Below, one piece after another: positions 7,348 through 21,049 of a stretch of DNA of 25,243 bases. Under the pieces are notes generated by a model that saw nothing but the letters and a program-made list of their open reading frames with translations, had not been told where the DNA came from and did no database searches. Made by a program: the position numbers and the translations under genes. The DNA is from a virus: positions 1-25,243 of IMG/VR virus record IMGVR_UViG_3300020459_000063; one strand, written 5' to 3'. The first letter of the stretch is position 1. Each line of letters starts with the position of its first letter.

Positions 7348-8133
7348 ATGAATGATGAAATAAAGAATGCTATTGATGTATGTAAAAAAGCACAGCGTAA
7401 TTATGATTTGAATAAAATGGTTTCAGAAAAAGATTTAGAAACCCTTATCTACGTTGCAGCTAACTCACCATCAAAACAAAACGAAACACACTTTAGTTTA
7501 AGAGTATATACTAATCCTAATATTATAAGAAAAATATATAACCGAACAAAGTTATTTACTTTTCAAACTAATACTAAAACAGATAAAATATTTACAGATA
7601 CTAAAAAGAAGTTTGTAACCGATCATAGATATGCTGTAACAAATTCTCAAATACTAGCACCTGTTGTTTTTGTGTATTGTGATGAAACTAAAAATATAAG
7701 AAGTGGTACACACATTGTTGCTACACAACCAAAGGCAACTAAAATAGCAATAGATACTTTAGAAGAACAAAAGAATACATCAATAGGTATATCATCTGGT
7801 CAATTAGTTATGGCTGCAGCTTTACTAGGATATAAAACTGGTTATTGTAGTGCTTTTGAAAGAGATGTAAAAGGCGATAACGTACAAAAATTATTAAAAC
7901 TAGATTCAGAACCTAAACTACTTGTGGGTGTAGGATATCCTCATCCAGATATGACTAGATTAGAACATCCTGAAGTATTTAATAAAGACATAAGTATCAA
8001 AGAAGGTAAACATGGTGATGAAGATAAGAGATGGACTTTTCCATCAATGCTAACTGAAGACCTATATAAAACTCAACACTATGGGTTTGAAAAAGTTGAA
8101 GTATATATTAATGACAAAAGACACAAAAGATAA
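7348..8133 (+). CDS. Nitroreductase-like flavoprotein
   Basis: The 261-residue product resembles the FMN-dependent nitroreductase family. Visible features are an early LETLIYVAANSPSKQNETHF segment (about 31-49; this region normally contacts FMN), and a later SSGQLVMAAALLGYKTGYCSAF segment (about 155-178), the dimer-interface helix with the usual GL..G pattern, followed by LLVGVGYP (about 215). The family catalyses NAD(P)H-dependent flavin reductions or dehydrogenations; the substrate here is unknown. The ATG at 7348 is preferred over upstream starts because those lie before the promoter's start point. It overlaps the next gene (a radical SAM protein) by 23 bases, suggesting a joint pathway. 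Confidence 0.72.
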   Translation: MNDEIKNAIDVCKKAQRNYDLNKMVSEKDLETLIYVAANSPSKQNETHFSLRVYTNPNIIRKIYNRTKLFTFQTNTKTDKIFTDTKKKFVTDHRYAVTNSQILAPVVFVYCDETKNIRSGTHIVATQPKATKIAIDTLEEQKNTSIGISSGQLVMAAALLGYKTGYCSAFERDVKGDNVQKLLKLDSEPKLLVGVGYPHPDMTRLEHPEVFNKDISIKEGKHGDEDKRWTFPSMLTEDLYKTQHYGFEKVEVYINDKRHKR

Positions 8134-9532
8134 ATCACATTTAACAAAGGGTGGACCAGGCGACAAATACCTAGGTGACGGTAAGGTAGATACTAGCCAA
8201 TGGTTTACTCACTCTCATATGTTACCTTGGAAAGGTGGTGAATTTGAAAAGAAAGTTAAAGATCAAAAGATGTTTTTCTGTAGTGCTCCTTTTCAAATGT
8301 TATACACTAATACTAGAGGTAGATATGCACCATGCTCGTGGGCAGAATTAAACAATGAACATTTAGCACCTAGAATACATGACGTTAGCGTAAAAGATTG
8401 GTTTGAGAATAATGAAAACTTAAACAAGTTAAGAGCTGAGATGTTAGATGAAAATTCAGATTTAAAACTTGCAAACGAATGGTGTAGAACTTGTATAAAA
8501 CAAGAAAAAGAATACGGTAGATCAAGGCGACAGGCTTCACTTAAAATACAAACTAATGACTCTCTTATATGGCCTGAATTAAAAAAATCTATAAGAAGAT
8601 ACCAACAAGATATGAAAGGTCATATTAAAGATAGATGTTTTGAAGTACAGATAAAAGTATATGGTAATAAATGTAACCTTGATTGTTTTATGTGTCACCC
8701 TTTTGATTCTACAAAAAGATTAGAAACAATGCGTCACAAAGAACTAGATGGTCAAACTATATTTTCACCACACGTACAAGAATATGCTAGATCAAAAAGA
8801 TCGTTTGATTTAGATAAAGATAGTTTAGAAACAATATCAGATCAAATAGTAGATATAGCACCTTACATCTATGCAATGAAACTAATAGGTGGTGAACCAT
8901 TAGTTATGAAACCATATTATAAGTTACTTGAAAAATTAGTAGAAAAGGCACCAGATGATTGTCAGAAAATGCTTTTAAAATTTCAAACCAATATGCAAAC
9001 TATGAATATGGATAAAATGCAAGTTACAGATTATATTGATAAGTTTGGTACATTTGAGTTTACCGTGTCACTTGATAGTGTTGGAATATACAATAATTAT
9101 ATTAGAAGAAGATCAAATTGGGATGAGATTGTAAACAATATTAAAACCGTTAGACAATACCCTAATGTAAAAATAAATATTAATGGTGCAATATCTTTTT
9201 TAAGTGTGCTTAGATTTTATGAGTTACCTGAATGGTATGATAATAATATAAATTTGTTTAAGGGCTTTGATAGAGAAAGTATGATTAACTGGTCTAACAT
9301 AAGAAGTCCTGCAAAATTAGCTGCAAACGTATTACCTGATAAACTCAAACAAGAACTGATACCTAAATATGAGAAGTGGCCAGATATACAACAAGTATTA
9401 CGTGAAGACAATAATGGTTTAGATTATAAAGAAACTATTAATTATTTGTTGACTATAGATAAACGTTATAAAGGAACTAAATGGGAGTACAACTTATTTG
9501 ATGTATTTCCTGAACTAAAGGAGTATTACTAG
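8111..9532 (+). CDS. Radical SAM protein with N-terminal cysteine (SPASM/twitch-like) module
   Basis: A CX3CX2C motif at Cys188, Cys192 and Cys195 (KCNLDCFMC), which binds the SAM-cleaving [4Fe-4S] cluster, places this 473-residue protein in the radical SAM superfamily. MKLIGGEPLVMKPYY at about 255-270 fits the GGEP SAM-binding motif. Before the core lies a cysteine module (FFCSAPF, then GRYAPCSWAE, then EWCRTCIKQ, about residues 55-145), like an auxiliary Fe-S SPASM/twitch domain but at the N-terminus. The start at 8111 lies inside the end of the nitroreductase gene; an earlier in-frame start exists at 8081. Its substrate is unknown; this family includes peptide- and sugar-modifying enzymes. 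Confidence 0.82.
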   Translation: MTKDTKDKSHLTKGGPGDKYLGDGKVDTSQWFTHSHMLPWKGGEFEKKVKDQKMFFCSAPFQMLYTNTRGRYAPCSWAELNNEHLAPRIHDVSVKDWFENNENLNKLRAEMLDENSDLKLANEWCRTCIKQEKEYGRSRRQASLKIQTNDSLIWPELKKSIRRYQQDMKGHIKDRCFEVQIKVYGNKCNLDCFMCHPFDSTKRLETMRHKELDGQTIFSPHVQEYARSKRSFDLDKDSLETISDQIVDIAPYIYAMKLIGGEPLVMKPYYKLLEKLVEKAPDDCQKMLLKFQTNMQTMNMDKMQVTDYIDKFGTFEFTVSLDSVGIYNNYIRRRSNWDEIVNNIKTVRQYPNVKININGAISFLSVLRFYELPEWYDNNINLFKGFDRESMINWSNIRSPAKLAANVLPDKLKQELIPKYEKWPDIQQVLREDNNGLDYKETINYLLTIDKRYKGTKWEYNLFDVFPELKEYY

Positions 9533-10026: not shown

Positions 10027-10781
10027 GCCATTTAACAGACTTTTATATTCAAAATCAAAAACTATCCTCACCTAATATGGATCTATCACATAGATGTATA
10101 TTACGTTGCCCACAATGTTTACGACAAAAGGTAGAAGGTCTACCTAGAATAGCAAGATCATTTGATATAGGTAAAAATGAGTTTAGAAAAATATTAAACT
10201 ATTACGAAAATCAAATTACTTTCTGTGGTCAAATATCCGACCCAATATATCATCCTGACTTTCTTGCATTTTTAGAAATGATGGACGGTCTAGGTAAAGG
10301 TTTAAGAGTTGCAACTAATGGTACTAATACAAAAGGTATGGATACGAAATGGTGGGAAAAAGCATATAGTTATGGTCTAGGAGAAAATTGTTGGTACTTT
10401 GGTGTTGATGGTTTAGATGAGAAATCAGAATTGTATCGTATAGGTTCTAATTTCAAACAAGTATGGGAAACTATGAAAATGGGAGTACAAGCAGGACACC
10501 CTATCGTATGGCAATTTATTATCTTTGGTTATAATGAACATGAAATAGAACAAGCAAAAGAGATTGCACATAAAGAAGGCATAACATTATTATTAATAAA
10601 AACAAATAGAGGTTTTGATCCTAGAAGTAGAACATTAAGAAAAAACGTACAAGAAGCATACGCTAACTTTAATGTACCTAGTGATAAGAATAGAGTTAAA
10701 AAAATAAAAAGTGAAGAATACTTTAACGTTACACCAGAACTAAAACGTTGGAGACAAGTTAGAGAAGGAGCATTGAAATGA
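10023..10781 (+). CDS. Radical SAM enzyme core
   Basis: The 252-residue protein has the CX3CX2C motif at Cys25, Cys29 and Cys32 (RCILRCPQC) in the usual N-terminal place, followed by the expected barrel pattern: ITFCGQISDPIYHPDF (about 65-80; takes the place of the GGEP motif), LRVATNGT (about 100, strand 3) and WYFGVDG (about 127, strand 4). It lacks a C-terminal auxiliary-cluster domain, which the preceding small SPASM-like protein may supply. It overlaps both neighbours by ATGA, so the three genes 9703, 10023 and 10778 are translationally coupled. The missing glutamate of GGEP is odd and may mean altered SAM contact. Confidence 0.85.
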   Translation: MSHLTDFYIQNQKLSSPNMDLSHRCILRCPQCLRQKVEGLPRIARSFDIGKNEFRKILNYYENQITFCGQISDPIYHPDFLAFLEMMDGLGKGLRVATNGTNTKGMDTKWWEKAYSYGLGENCWYFGVDGLDEKSELYRIGSNFKQVWETMKMGVQAGHPIVWQFIIFGYNEHEIEQAKEIAHKEGITLLLIKTNRGFDPRSRTLRKNVQEAYANFNVPSDKNRVKKIKSEEYFNVTPELKRWRQVREGALK

Positions 10782-11638
10782 ACTTGACATATGGAAATCA
10801 AACAGTTGAATTTTGGACAAATATAAAAGCAGATATAATGAAATCACCACACAAAGCATTAGCATTAAAAGATATTGACTTTGATGATGACTTTTTACCT
10901 AAACAAGTTGTAGTATCATTATCAGGTGGTTGTGATTCATCATCAGCAACATACTTAACATTAAAACACTTTCCACAAATAGAGATATTTCCTTTTATGT
11001 GTAATGACGTAAACGCTCCTAAAGACGCTGACGCAGCTAGAGAAATAGTTGAATACTTACAAAAGAAGTTTCCTAATGGTAAGTTAAATGACATAACAAT
11101 CAAAGACTTTAACGATAGAGAAGTAGGTGGTTGGTGGCCTAAAGCAAAAGAGATGATGAAAGTAAATCAAAAGTTATATGGTAACATGTCTGTAACTGCT
11201 GTTGCAAAGATTTTACAACTAGATAAACTTATACCTGACTTTATGAAAGAGTTTAAAGGTCCTATTAGACTAGATGGTATGACAGCAAACCCACCTGTTA
11301 ATATACGTATGGCATTTGGTGATTATGTAAAAGAAAGATTTCCACAATATACATTTACTGCTAAAGATATTGAAAGAGTACAAGGAGAAACAAGACGTGA
11401 TAGTCCAAATAAACCTAACATAACATATAACGTATATCAACCTTATATAAATGTAAATAAAAGATTTGTTGCTGGTGTATTTAAAGAAGAAGGTCTTATG
11501 AAAGACTTATTCCCTATAACTAGAAGTTGTGTAGGTTCTGGTAAAGAAACTAAAGACTTTACTGCATGGTGTTGGAAGTGTTTCTGGTGCTATGAAAAAG
11601 CGTGGGCGTTTAATCTACCAAATACCCATATGGCTTAA
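10778..11638 (+). CDS. PP-loop ATP pyrophosphatase, QueC-like
   Basis: The 286-residue product has a PP-loop SGGCDSS at 49-55 (VVVSLSGGCDSSSATYL), which binds and activates ATP for adenylation of a substrate, and a C-terminal zinc-type cluster Cys251, Cys265, Cys268, Cys271. This combination, and the acidic stretch between, resemble QueC (7-cyano-7-deazaguanine synthase). However the length is larger than QueC (about 220-230), the cysteine spacing differs and no queD or queE is in the window, so a related amide- or nitrile-forming or tRNA/peptide-modifying ATPase is equally possible. It overlaps the upstream radical SAM gene by ATGA and the downstream convergent gene by 29 bases. Confidence 0.72.
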   Translation: MNLTYGNQTVEFWTNIKADIMKSPHKALALKDIDFDDDFLPKQVVVSLSGGCDSSSATYLTLKHFPQIEIFPFMCNDVNAPKDADAAREIVEYLQKKFPNGKLNDITIKDFNDREVGGWWPKAKEMMKVNQKLYGNMSVTAVAKILQLDKLIPDFMKEFKGPIRLDGMTANPPVNIRMAFGDYVKERFPQYTFTAKDIERVQGETRRDSPNKPNITYNVYQPYINVNKRFVAGVFKEEGLMKDLFPITRSCVGSGKETKDFTAWCWKCFWCYEKAWAFNLPNTHMA

Positions 11639-18188: not shown

Positions 18189-19868
18189 TTAAGGTATCAT
18201 CACAGATTGATCTTTAACTGTACTATCTGGATTTGATGTTCCTATGTTTGTTGAACCGTATTCTGTTTTGTTTGTTGTATTAGATGAGCTGTTATTAATA
18301 TTATTAATTGTAGTACCAGCCTCACCATTACCTATTGTTAATTTCTCTATTTTATCTGCCTTTAATTCTTCTACATTGTCAAGTTTCTTTTGATCGTTCT
18401 TTACAAGGCCTAAATCATCATGTTGGTCAGCAACTGATGGTGTGTCACTATCGCCTGCAAGAAACTTAGCAGTCTTTTTCTTATCTACTAAACCAAATGT
18501 TAAACCAGATAAGAACCCAGCAAAACCTGATGAAGCTTTATCTCTTAATGTTATTTCTTCGCCTTCTTCTTTGTCAAGTAAATCACCTGCTTGTGCAACA
18601 CCCTTAGCAGCGTCAAATATACCCATAACAGCAGCAAGAGGTAAGAATACACGACCTGCAACTCTAGCAGCACCACCTGCTACTTTACCTGCTATCTTAG
18701 CACCTTTTTTAACATTGTTTTTTACGAGTGTGCTTGTTTTTACTTTTGTCTTTTTTGCGTCTTTTTTATCTGTTGTTGTTACTGCTTTCGTGCCTGTACC
18801 AGTACCAAGTACCTTTGGTTTTGCACCCACAGGTCCTTTAGGTGCCTTTGGTGGTAGACCTAACATACTTCTCATTGAGCCTGCAAGTGTACTACCTAAT
18901 CCTGTGATTGAAGATGTAATTATGCCACCTAGACCTGATAAGGCAGCAAGAGGTAACAATGCACTACCTATGCCCTCAAAGAAACCTTTATCATCTTCTT
19001 TTTTACCATCTAATAATTCGTTTGTAAGTTTTGATTCTTCGTAAATCTTTTCTAATAAATTTGATGATGTATCAAATTGTTTATCTGATTCTCTTTCTTG
19101 TTCAGTTGCCTCTTCACTATCTGCAAGACCACTATCGGCAGTATCAGGCATAAGATTCATACCTAACGACCCAGCAGTTGCGTCTTTTGCTATATCTTCT
19201 CTACCACCTTTTGTACCTGCAGCTGCACCTGTTGATGTACTACCGCCTCCTTTTAAAGCACCTTTTGTTTCTTTTCTACGTAATTGTCTTTTAGCAGATA
19301 TACCTCTTTGCTCTGCTCTTTCTTCAGACTCAATTGCTCTTTCTATTCTCTTGCCTATGATAGGTACATTTGTAAGACCTATTCGTTTAGCAAGTTTAAG
19401 TGGTTTTAATTCTTTTTTAAAATCTCTAAATGATAATGATAATTTAGTTGATAACCCTAATACTTTTTTTAATTCAGCATTTGTTTTACCTACAGTTGCT
19501 TGAATATATGCAAGTTCTTCCTCTGAAATAATACCTTTTTTAAATAGACCTTCATACTCTTTGATTGTTTTTTCTGTAGTTTGTTGTTGAGTTTTTGCGT
19601 CATCAAAATCCATGCCTTTCAAAGAGTCAAGTTCAACAACAGAATAATCTATTACAAAGTTGACTATCTCTTGTCGTATTTCTGCGTCATTAAGCTTTGC
19701 CTGACTCGTATAACCAGCAGACCTCTCTAATTGAGATTGGTACTCCTGTAACGAGTCAGATATAGCAAACTTAGGATCAGATTCATCTTCTTTTTGTCTT
19801 TTTAGAATTGACTTAAAGTTTTCTGCTGACGCCTTTTTAAAGACTTTGGATTCTGCTGTTGTTGCCAT
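18189..19868 (-). CDS. gp29: Tail tape measure protein, gp29-like
   Basis: The 559-residue protein is close in length to T4 gp29 (590), the tape measure that sets tail length and plugs the hub. It is helix-rich and charged at the N-terminus (about 1-200), has long Gly/Ala/Lys low-complexity stretches (about 200-225, 340-400), hydrophobic segments (about 300-335, 400-425) like those of tape measures that enter membranes, and a polar Asn/Ser/Thr tail. Family assignment rests on composition, length and position: it follows the gp26/frameshift chaperone pair and a small membrane protein, and precedes gp48. It starts in a TAATG overlap. Confidence 0.82.
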   Translation of the reverse strand: MATTAESKVFKKASAENFKSILKRQKEDESDPKFAISDSLQEYQSQLERSAGYTSQAKLNDAEIRQEIVNFVIDYSVVELDSLKGMDFDDAKTQQQTTEKTIKEYEGLFKKGIISEEELAYIQATVGKTNAELKKVLGLSTKLSLSFRDFKKELKPLKLAKRIGLTNVPIIGKRIERAIESEERAEQRGISAKRQLRRKETKGALKGGGSTSTGAAAGTKGGREDIAKDATAGSLGMNLMPDTADSGLADSEEATEQERESDKQFDTSSNLLEKIYEESKLTNELLDGKKEDDKGFFEGIGSALLPLAALSGLGGIITSSITGLGSTLAGSMRSMLGLPPKAPKGPVGAKPKVLGTGTGTKAVTTTDKKDAKKTKVKTSTLVKNNVKKGAKIAGKVAGGAARVAGRVFLPLAAVMGIFDAAKGVAQAGDLLDKEEGEEITLRDKASSGFAGFLSGLTFGLVDKKKTAKFLAGDSDTPSVADQHDDLGLVKNDQKKLDNVEELKADKIEKLTIGNGEAGTTINNINNSSSNTTNKTEYGSTNIGTSNPDSTVKDQSVMIP

Positions 19869-20167
19869 TATTCTTTATTCTTAACTTTTGATGGTTTACC
19901 ATTTACGTATATTGCAAACCAACCTGCACCAGCCCCTACAACTACTGACACTAACCCTGCCTGTGCGTTGTTAGGATTTTCTAGTGCCATAAACCAATTG
20001 ATTACATCTAAAAATGCCCAACCATAAGCAAGCATTAATAGTCTTGGTACTAGTCTCCAGTTAGACATCAATTCAGGTATCTCTACCTCAATAAAATGCC
20101 ATAGTGATTTAACACCGTGTTTGAAACCTGCCCAGCCTGTGCTAAGCATATTTTTTAAAAAGTTCAT
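19868..20167 (-). CDS. Small membrane protein between tail chaperone and tape measure
   Basis: The 99-residue protein has an amphipathic N-terminus (MNFLKNMLSTGWAGFKHGVKSLW) and two hydrophobic segments, RLLMLAYGWAFLDVINWFMAL (about 42-62, in part) and AGLVSVVVGAGAGWFAIYVNG (about 69-88), with a lysine-rich end. It looks like an inner-membrane protein and could be a holin; similar proteins with the LVSVVVGAGAGWF segment are common in marine phages, usually unnamed. Its ATG lies 1 base after the stop of the frameshift extension and its stop overlaps the tape measure ATG. Confidence 0.7.
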   Translation of the reverse strand: MNFLKNMLSTGWAGFKHGVKSLWHFIEVEIPELMSNWRLVPRLLMLAYGWAFLDVINWFMALENPNNAQAGLVSVVVGAGAGWFAIYVNGKPSKVKNKE

Positions 20168-20168
20168 A

Positions 20169-20366
20169 TTATCTCCCTCTTTGTTTTTCTCTTATTTTCT
20201 CGTTTTCTTCTCGTATATGCTGTAACAATAAGTCAACATATATTTCCCTCTCCCATGGTAACATTCCTTCAAGGTCACCTAATGAGTATTTATGGTATTG
20301 CATTAAAGCAAAGTTTGTCCTATAAAAACTCTCTAGGCTTTCATGTAAGAGGGTAACTGAAAAAAA
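20169..20366 (-). CDS. -1 frameshift extension of gp26 (tail chaperone C-terminal part)
   Basis: The frame is open from the slippery run at 20366 to TAA at 20169-20171 and overlaps the last eight codons plus stop of gp26. Joined to gp26 it would give 293 residues (230 from gp26, 63 new). Read alone from ATG 20303 it gives 44 residues, starting MQYHKYSLGDLEGMLPWERE and continuing IYVDLLLQHIREENE. This acidic/aromatic helix resembles the extra domain of phage tail chaperones that bind the tape measure. The ATG at 20303 has only a poor ribosome site, and the frame is closed by TGA directly before the slippery site, so fusion is favoured. Confidence 0.72.
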   Translation of the reverse strand, partial: FFSVTLLHESLESFYRTNFALMQYHKYSLGDLEGMLPWEREIYVDLLLQHIREENEKIREKQRGR

Positions 20367-21049
20367 TCAGACGCTCCTTGTAATAACATTTCATGCTCTA
20401 CACCAGATTTAGGGTTCTTGTATTTGATTGTATGACTTATGATAGGCAACGTTTCAAAAAAGTCTTTTAACTTTTTAAATTGTGGCATAGTCAAGTTGTC
20501 AACAAACTGCTCAAGTTCTTTTGGTTCAAGGTCTTGTGTTTCAAACACCTCATCACCATTGTAAATCTGAGCAATACAATCTCTCATCAAATTAACTGTA
20601 AGGTCAATTATAGTCTTCTTATCTGACACTTCAATTATAGTAGGCACTTTCATTATCACACCGTAATCTTTTGAAAAAGGTATATGTGTGTTCACCTTTT
20701 TACTAAAGTCTGGCTTTACACTCTCAATATTAAAATCATAATCTACAATTTGTGTTTCATCATCTGGACATTTTAGTTTAAGTTGTACAGTTTCACCTAT
20801 TGACTTTGATCTTATGTTCAACCATAACCATTCAAAATCGTAAACTGGTAACTTCGTAACGTCAATACCATCTGTCAATACACAAGTTTGAACAGTTTTG
20901 ATTAGTGTATCAACCATCTCCCGTTCTACATTGTTCTCTACAGACATCAATAAAATCTTTTCTTCTTTTACTAAAAATGGTCTGTACTTTACCTTTGCAC
21001 CGTTTGACAACATCAAGTCATGCTCAGGCGTCTTCATAAAATTAAGCAT
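20333..21049 (-). CDS. gp26: gp26-type baseplate hub assembly protein / tape measure chaperone
   Basis: This 238-residue protein (T4 gp26 is 208) belongs to the T4 gp26 family: N-terminal KTPEHDLMLSNGAKVKYRPF, FLVKEEKILLMS (about 25-37), the central DFEWLWLNIRSKSIGE (about 70-85) and the C-terminal LEQFVDNLTMPQFKKLKDFF (about 188-207, in part). gp26 is not kept in the mature particle but helps build the hub and tape measure complex. AAAGGAG precedes the ATG by 6 bases. The tail of the gene carries an AAGGAG, a T_TTT_TTT slippery run and an open -1 frame, so it may also yield a longer fusion. Confidence 0.88.
   Translation of the reverse strand: MLNFMKTPEHDLMLSNGAKVKYRPFLVKEEKILLMSVENNVEREMVDTLIKTVQTCVLTDGIDVTKLPVYDFEWLWLNIRSKSIGETVQLKLKCPDDETQIVDYDFNIESVKPDFSKKVNTHIPFSKDYGVIMKVPTIIEVSDKKTIIDLTVNLMRDCIAQIYNGDEVFETQDLEPKELEQFVDNLTMPQFKKLKDFFETLPIISHTIKYKNPKSGVEHEMLLQGASDFFQLPSYMKA
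20360..20379 (-). promoter_or_regulatory. Predicted -1 programmed frameshift signal
   Basis: In gp26 codon phase the minus strand reads GGA GCG TCT GAT TTT TTT CAG: the heptamer T_TTT_TTT (20366-20360) is in the exact X_XXY_YYZ phase. AAGGAG (20379-20374) lies 7 bases upstream, like the internal Shine-Dalgarno stimulator of dnaX. In the -1 frame TGA lies immediately before the heptamer and the frame is open for 63 codons after it. A downstream CTCT/AGAG stem is weak. Confidence 0.75.

Follow-up and report, generated by a model that had tools for sequence, protein, structure and literature searches.

The tail-assembly chaperones of T4-like phages were reportedly identified by Vladimirov, Gautam and Davidson in 2022, in Virology (doi 10.1016/j.virol.2021.11.003). 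In phage lambda, a short chaperone form coats the tape measure and an extension of it recruits tube subunits (PMC5009743); in 2016 the G-T frameshifting that underlies this pair was called conserved 'except T4' (PMC5009743). The hub assembly chaperones listed for T4 include gp26 and gp51, the latter being required yet not part of the final particle (PMC3004832). A puzzle attached to gp51 in 2010, when Sullivan et al. noted that the protein has about 20% of its usual length in cyanophages and is missing in Aeh1, the cyanophage and marine vibriophage versions seemingly lacking their first ~200 residues; the passages of that paper on the subject offer no explanation for the short or missing gp51 (PMC3037559). 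According to the PRFect paper, in a passage crediting Vladimirov 2022, the short gene of some T4-like phages is accompanied by a long, fused one (PMC10885494), and the Adele paper refers to that study for poly-T signals of frameshifting in the chaperone genes of T4-like phages (PMC12846349). Since the two-gene solution of T4 and the poly-T shift sites are both given in these citing passages, the principle is already published, and a frameshifted T4-like chaperone is not new in kind.

Here we describe an unannotated further example in a viral sequence from IMG/VR (record IMGVR_UViG_3300020459_000063, positions 1 to 25,243; the whole stretch of 25,243 nucleotides is hereafter called the window). 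We propose that a -1 programmed frameshift almost certainly makes a short and a long tail-assembly chaperone from this one gene. What is added to the published principle is the breadth of the comparison (245 of 246 gene pairs), a statistical test, a duplication confined to a single clade, a relic of the site in T4 gp26, the case of Aeh1 and a set of Ackermannviridae-like variants, some of which may be in the 2022 paper as well.

Anatomy and identity of the gp26 locus

The window gp26 gene (21049..20333, minus strand) starts with an ATG closely preceded by the ribosome site AAAGGAG and encodes a short form of 238 residues. Its 3' end reads GGA GCG TCT GAT TTT TTT CAG TTA CCC TCT TAC ATG AAA GCC TAG, corresponding to the C-terminal residues LLQGASDFFQLPSYMKA before the stop, and the codons GAT TTT TTT set the heptamer T_TTT_TTT (20366..20360, minus strand) in slippery phase. 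A minus-strand AAGGAG (20374..20379) ends 7 nt before the heptamer, and a TGA (20369..20367), abutting the heptamer on its upstream side, closes the -1 frame. Beyond that point the -1 frame is open for 63 codons plus a TAA (20169..20360, minus strand, with the stop itself at 20171..20169), leaving 1 base between this stop and the ATG of the next gene at 20167. Normal reading passes through another 24 nt of coding sequence behind the heptamer and ends at the TAG at 20333..20335, giving 238 residues, while slippage gives 230 + 63 = 293 residues, the extension being part of the long form only. The first start codon within the extension is an ATG at 20303, 57 nt in, whose nearest ribosome-site candidate is an AGGA about 14 nt away. 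All of this agrees with the preliminary description, which had listed the in-phase heptamer, the AAGGAG, the closing TGA, the 63 open codons, the 293-residue product and the poor ribosome site of the ATG at 20303.

The mechanism that we infer for the cell, with the frequency of slippage and the binding partners of the products, is as follows. Most ribosomes would read gp26 through to its own stop and produce the 238-residue form, and a minority would slip back one base on U_UUU_UUU, enter the gp51-type extension and produce the 293-residue form. If the two forms act like lambda gpG and gpGT, binding of the tape-measure protein would fall to the short form and recruitment of tail-tube subunits to the extension, and both chaperone forms would leave before the tail is completed.

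The window gp26 matches PF12322 (T4_baseplate) with an E-value of 5.1e-53 and also PHROG 150, annotated 'baseplate hub'; a profile comparison of the short form with T4-type gp51 gave 97.7%. The extension alone matches PHROG 634, the gp51 family annotated 'baseplate hub assembly catalyst', with an E-value of 1.7e-27, and its homologues are found in 568 public phage records, mostly from cyanophages. On these matches the short form can be regarded as a homologue of T4 gp26 and the extension as a homologue of the gp51 C-terminus, and both the short and the long form are predicted products of the window locus. The preliminary description had seen in the extension a hidden helix of tail-chaperone type; the open extension does exist, but it belongs to an already known family. 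Every annotated frameshift-type record that was examined has gp51 either as a separate CDS or missing, and the joined product is annotated in none. Aeromonas phage Aeh1 also carries an unannotated gp51 extension, located behind GAT TTT TTC (L259, 3217-3384).

The gene order in the window is gp4, gp2, gp54, gp26/51, a 99-aa ORF, a 559-aa ORF and gp48. The 559-aa ORF (18189-19868, minus strand) directly precedes gp48, the place taken by gene 29, the tape measure, in T4, and relatives have an ORF of 501-657 aa there. No sequence relation between this ORF and T4 gp29 was detectable, and it gives a short, weak match to a Cr30 ORF annotated as a tape measure; by its position it is a candidate tape measure. 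The chaperone had been placed just before the tape measure, which fits by position, but the 99-aa ORF (20167..19868, minus strand) intervenes. This small ORF matches PHROG 10198, to which PHROG assigns no function, and its hydrophobic stretches suggest a membrane protein. Elsewhere in the window, on the strand opposite the tail genes, a Radical SAM-like protein (8081-9532, plus strand; PHROG 14086) and a QueC-like protein (10778-11638, plus strand; PHROG 1550) are encoded, suggesting 7-deazaguanine or queuosine chemistry.

Conservation of the proposed slip site

The window is AT-rich (34% GC) and contains ATTTTTTTC 4 times, against about 1 expected by chance. Such a run is not rare and a single site proves little, so the case rests on comparison. 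To this end 258 loci were gathered from IMG/VR scans and GenBank phages, and an automatic test found adjacent gp26 and gp51 reading frames in 246 sequences, the window included. Single-sequence scans of IMG/VR with the nt-1 extension as query returned two near-copies, and the same kind of scan with the DLP6 extension gave no match.

The extension lies in the -1 frame in all 246 adjacent pairs, and an in-phase T_TTT_TTN stands at the junction in 245 of them, which bears out the expectation that heptamer and downstream frame would be conserved in relatives. Of these 245 loci, 200 have their 0-frame stop 0-3 nt behind the heptamer and 40, like the window, have it after 24 nt. In the one remaining pair (L200, 1275-2078), gp26 is without its last ~35 residues, the slip site among them, and the -1 extension is intact; it looks like a broken or misassembled copy.

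For a statistical test, the adjacent-pair set was reduced to 60 representatives at 70% protein identity, and 10 named phages from distant lineages were added (Aeh1, Cronobacter S13, YB07, RL2RES, Desulfovibrio 7757, Xanthomonas X1, Cr30, XG4, Melnitz and avDM6). All 70 representatives have the canonical site. The codon preceding the slip pair is GAT, AGT, AAT, TCT, GCT, TTT or CGT, that is, it varies among six amino acids and always ends in T. Given the amino acids and the codon use of each locus, the joint probability of the site is ~1e-29, which is an order-of-magnitude figure because the representatives are treated as independent. Other Phe-Phe pairs of the same loci are slippery in 84 of 292 cases, and in the GC-rich DLP6 the chance of the single site is 0.017.

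This conservation also disposes of the idea of one gene split by a sequencing error or a pseudogene mutation in the homopolymer run, which we consider practically impossible: such runs do attract errors and T4 gp51 joins the two parts in one frame, but the same frame relation recurs in 245 contigs and again across many finished phage genomes, refuting it, and the 0-frame stop often stands directly behind the heptamer.

Candidate stimulators of slippage are less distinct. Shine-Dalgarno-like motifs stand 8-10 nt upstream of the heptamer in most relatives, and across the family their mean match is 4.21, compared with 3.99 +- 0.07 under synonymous resampling. Conserved amino acids account for most of the motif, the synonymous excess being small, and we therefore dropped the internal Shine-Dalgarno as a strongly selected element; the AAGGAG of the window may be a weak stimulator. 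A strong pseudoknot or stem downstream of the site was not found in the window RNA, the folding of which is unremarkable, and downstream folding across the family is slightly stronger than in control stretches, a weak signal.

Selection on the extension and the question of a separate gp51

In the close group of the window, the first 18 extension codons give a pN/pS of 0.16 when read in the -1 frame, against 3.2 when read in that of gp26 and 2.1 in the remaining frame. Constraint on the downstream frame, as had been anticipated, is thus found in codons that precede any possible start codon in the window. Selection appears to act on the protein encoded by the -1 frame of the extension, which in the window contains no start codon ahead of 20303.

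These observations bear on two readings in which gp51 is started independently. In the first, both routes operate: the frameshift makes the long form and, where an ATG lies about 9 nt into the extension, reinitiation yields a small free gp51 besides. Many cyanophages do have such an in-frame ATG, near the gp26 stop, and conserve the heptamer as well, and the ATG is probably why gp51 is annotated there as a gene. The ATG is absent, however, in about half of the representatives, and the scheme is inapplicable to the window, where the first ATG comes only 57 nt in and has no good ribosome site. We regard a second, reinitiated product as unlikely, though worth keeping in mind for the cyanophages.

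The second reading dispenses with slippage altogether. Here gp51 would be a separate gene with its own start, the ATG at 20303 or, in many cyanophages, the ATG near the gp26 stop, reached by reinitiation, and the T-run would be incidental. Database annotation follows this reading in several phages, P-SSM2 and DLP6 among them, in which the gp51 ATG comes just after the gp26 stop, and an ATG matching the position of 20303 is kept in 40 of the 60 representatives. Yet the residue at that position is not Met in 16 of the 60, and no ATG, GTG or TTG occurs between the -1 stop and extension codon 12 in 29 of the 60 representatives (94 of the 245 loci). The protein-level constraint in the -1 frame covers the ~18-19 codons upstream of 20303, the first start in the window, and the invariant in-phase heptamer would be left unexplained. 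A separate gene is accordingly rejected for the window, on the constraint before 20303 and the missing starts in relatives, and we consider it very improbable in general; the comparison bears out the earlier argument against a gene starting at this ATG, which had been based on its lack of a good ribosome site. Nor did a search among relatives without the slippery run find any with a short separate extension gene and its own ribosome site, an arrangement that had been named as evidence against frameshifting. Those relatives have either gp51 as a full-length paralogue of gp26, as in T4, or, in three Ackermannviridae-like phages, a -1 extension behind a non-canonical junction.

Frameshifting thus remains the preferred reading, and it would account for the puzzle of 2010: the 'missing' part of gp51 would be gp26, joined to it by the frameshift, and Aeh1, from which gp51 seemed absent, has the extension.

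Phages without the slippery run

The two T4 proteins, gp26 (E 5e-63) and gp51 (E 4e-52), both belong to PF12322, and gp51 covers the full PHROG 150 profile plus the PHROG 634 extension in one frame. Because T4-type gp51 carries both parts as one continuous protein, the joined product exists in nature. An AlphaFold2 model of a T4-type long form has a mean pLDDT of 87.5 and presents the extension as three added helices. The end of T4 gp26, GLKEFFELL, is still recognisable as the motif of the frameshift type, but its codons are GAG TTC TTT and so the slippery run is gone. Short and long genes occur together in 16 T4-type loci (T4, Aeromonas 50AhydR13PP and 31, phiP4-3, a Krischvirus, RB43 and the loci L249-L258). 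In RB43 (L260, 2501-3794) the gp51-type long gene and the gp26-type short gene stand in tandem on the same strand; in T4 they are on opposite strands.

T4 and its close relatives, as their gene content indicates, reach the short-plus-long pair with two paralogues, gp26 as the short one and gp51 as the full-length one. In a maximum-likelihood tree every T4-type copy, short or long, falls in one clade (100/99) that includes no frameshift type, consistent with a single duplication. That the T4 state is the derived one is inferred from how much more widely the frameshift type is spread, and not from the tree, whose root these data do not fix.

Three Ackermannviridae-like phages, Klebsiella 0507-KN2-1 (L266), Vibrio D503 (L268) and Vibrio Kuja (L270), form one clade (99/100) and keep a -1 extension that directly adjoins the end of gp26 and carries PWH, a motif resembling the PWE of the others. 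The homology of these extensions is weak (best E 0.0066). Their junction codons are GAG ATT TTC, TCA CTT TTC and AAC CTT TTT, respectively, giving the non-canonical heptamers G_ATT_TTC, A_CTT_TTC and C_CTT_TTT. Either a different slip signal or another mechanism may be at work in them; if the former is true, these junctions would represent a new kind of slip signal for tail chaperones.

Taken together, we somewhat favour a history in which the single frameshifted gene is widespread in T4-type myophages, the T4 lineage replaced it once by duplication, giving a short 26 and a hard-wired long 51 and losing the slippery run, and a third, Ackermannviridae-like lineage keeps the -1 extension behind a non-canonical junction.

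Comparison with known systems

No relatives with solved structures were found by sequence. The predicted model of the window gp26 has a mean pLDDT of 86.2, and among the PDB matches listed for it the highest probability, 0.57, goes to the HK97 tail-assembly chaperone 2OB9, with a non-significant E-value of 1.9, a TM-score of 0.52 by target length and 3.7 A over 94 columns at 10% identity. The window protein differs from 2OB9 in being twice as long, and the structure search with the T4-type gp51 model did not match 2OB9.

The -1 frameshift cassette of E. coli dnaX has a Shine-Dalgarno-like motif ahead of an X_XXX_XXY heptamer, with a slip run of A. Many relatives of the window likewise have such a motif ~8-10 nt before an X_XXX_XXY heptamer. 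Unlike dnaX, the slip run of the window is U, no clear downstream stem is seen there, and the motif of the family is only weakly in excess over amino-acid constraint.

As in lambda, a tail gene located ahead of the tape-measure position would give a short product and, at a low level, a -1 extended one (PMC5009743), and the G/GT arrangement suggested at the outset gains support from the conserved in-phase heptamer and from an open -1 frame under protein-level selection. Lambda differs in being a siphophage, and the window has a 99-aa gene between the chaperone and the presumed tape measure.

The short form (PF12322) and the long form (PF12322 with the extension added) of the window have homologues in T4 gp26 and gp51, but T4 uses two genes without a slippery run and the window one gene with a -1 slip. 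The preliminary description had raised the possibility that T4-type tail assembly shares the two-product chaperone logic, and this is supported, except that T4 gp26 is not a lone product, its paralogue gp51 being the long form. T4, the named exception to G-T frameshifting (PMC5009743), in this way reaches the same short-plus-long pair via two genes.
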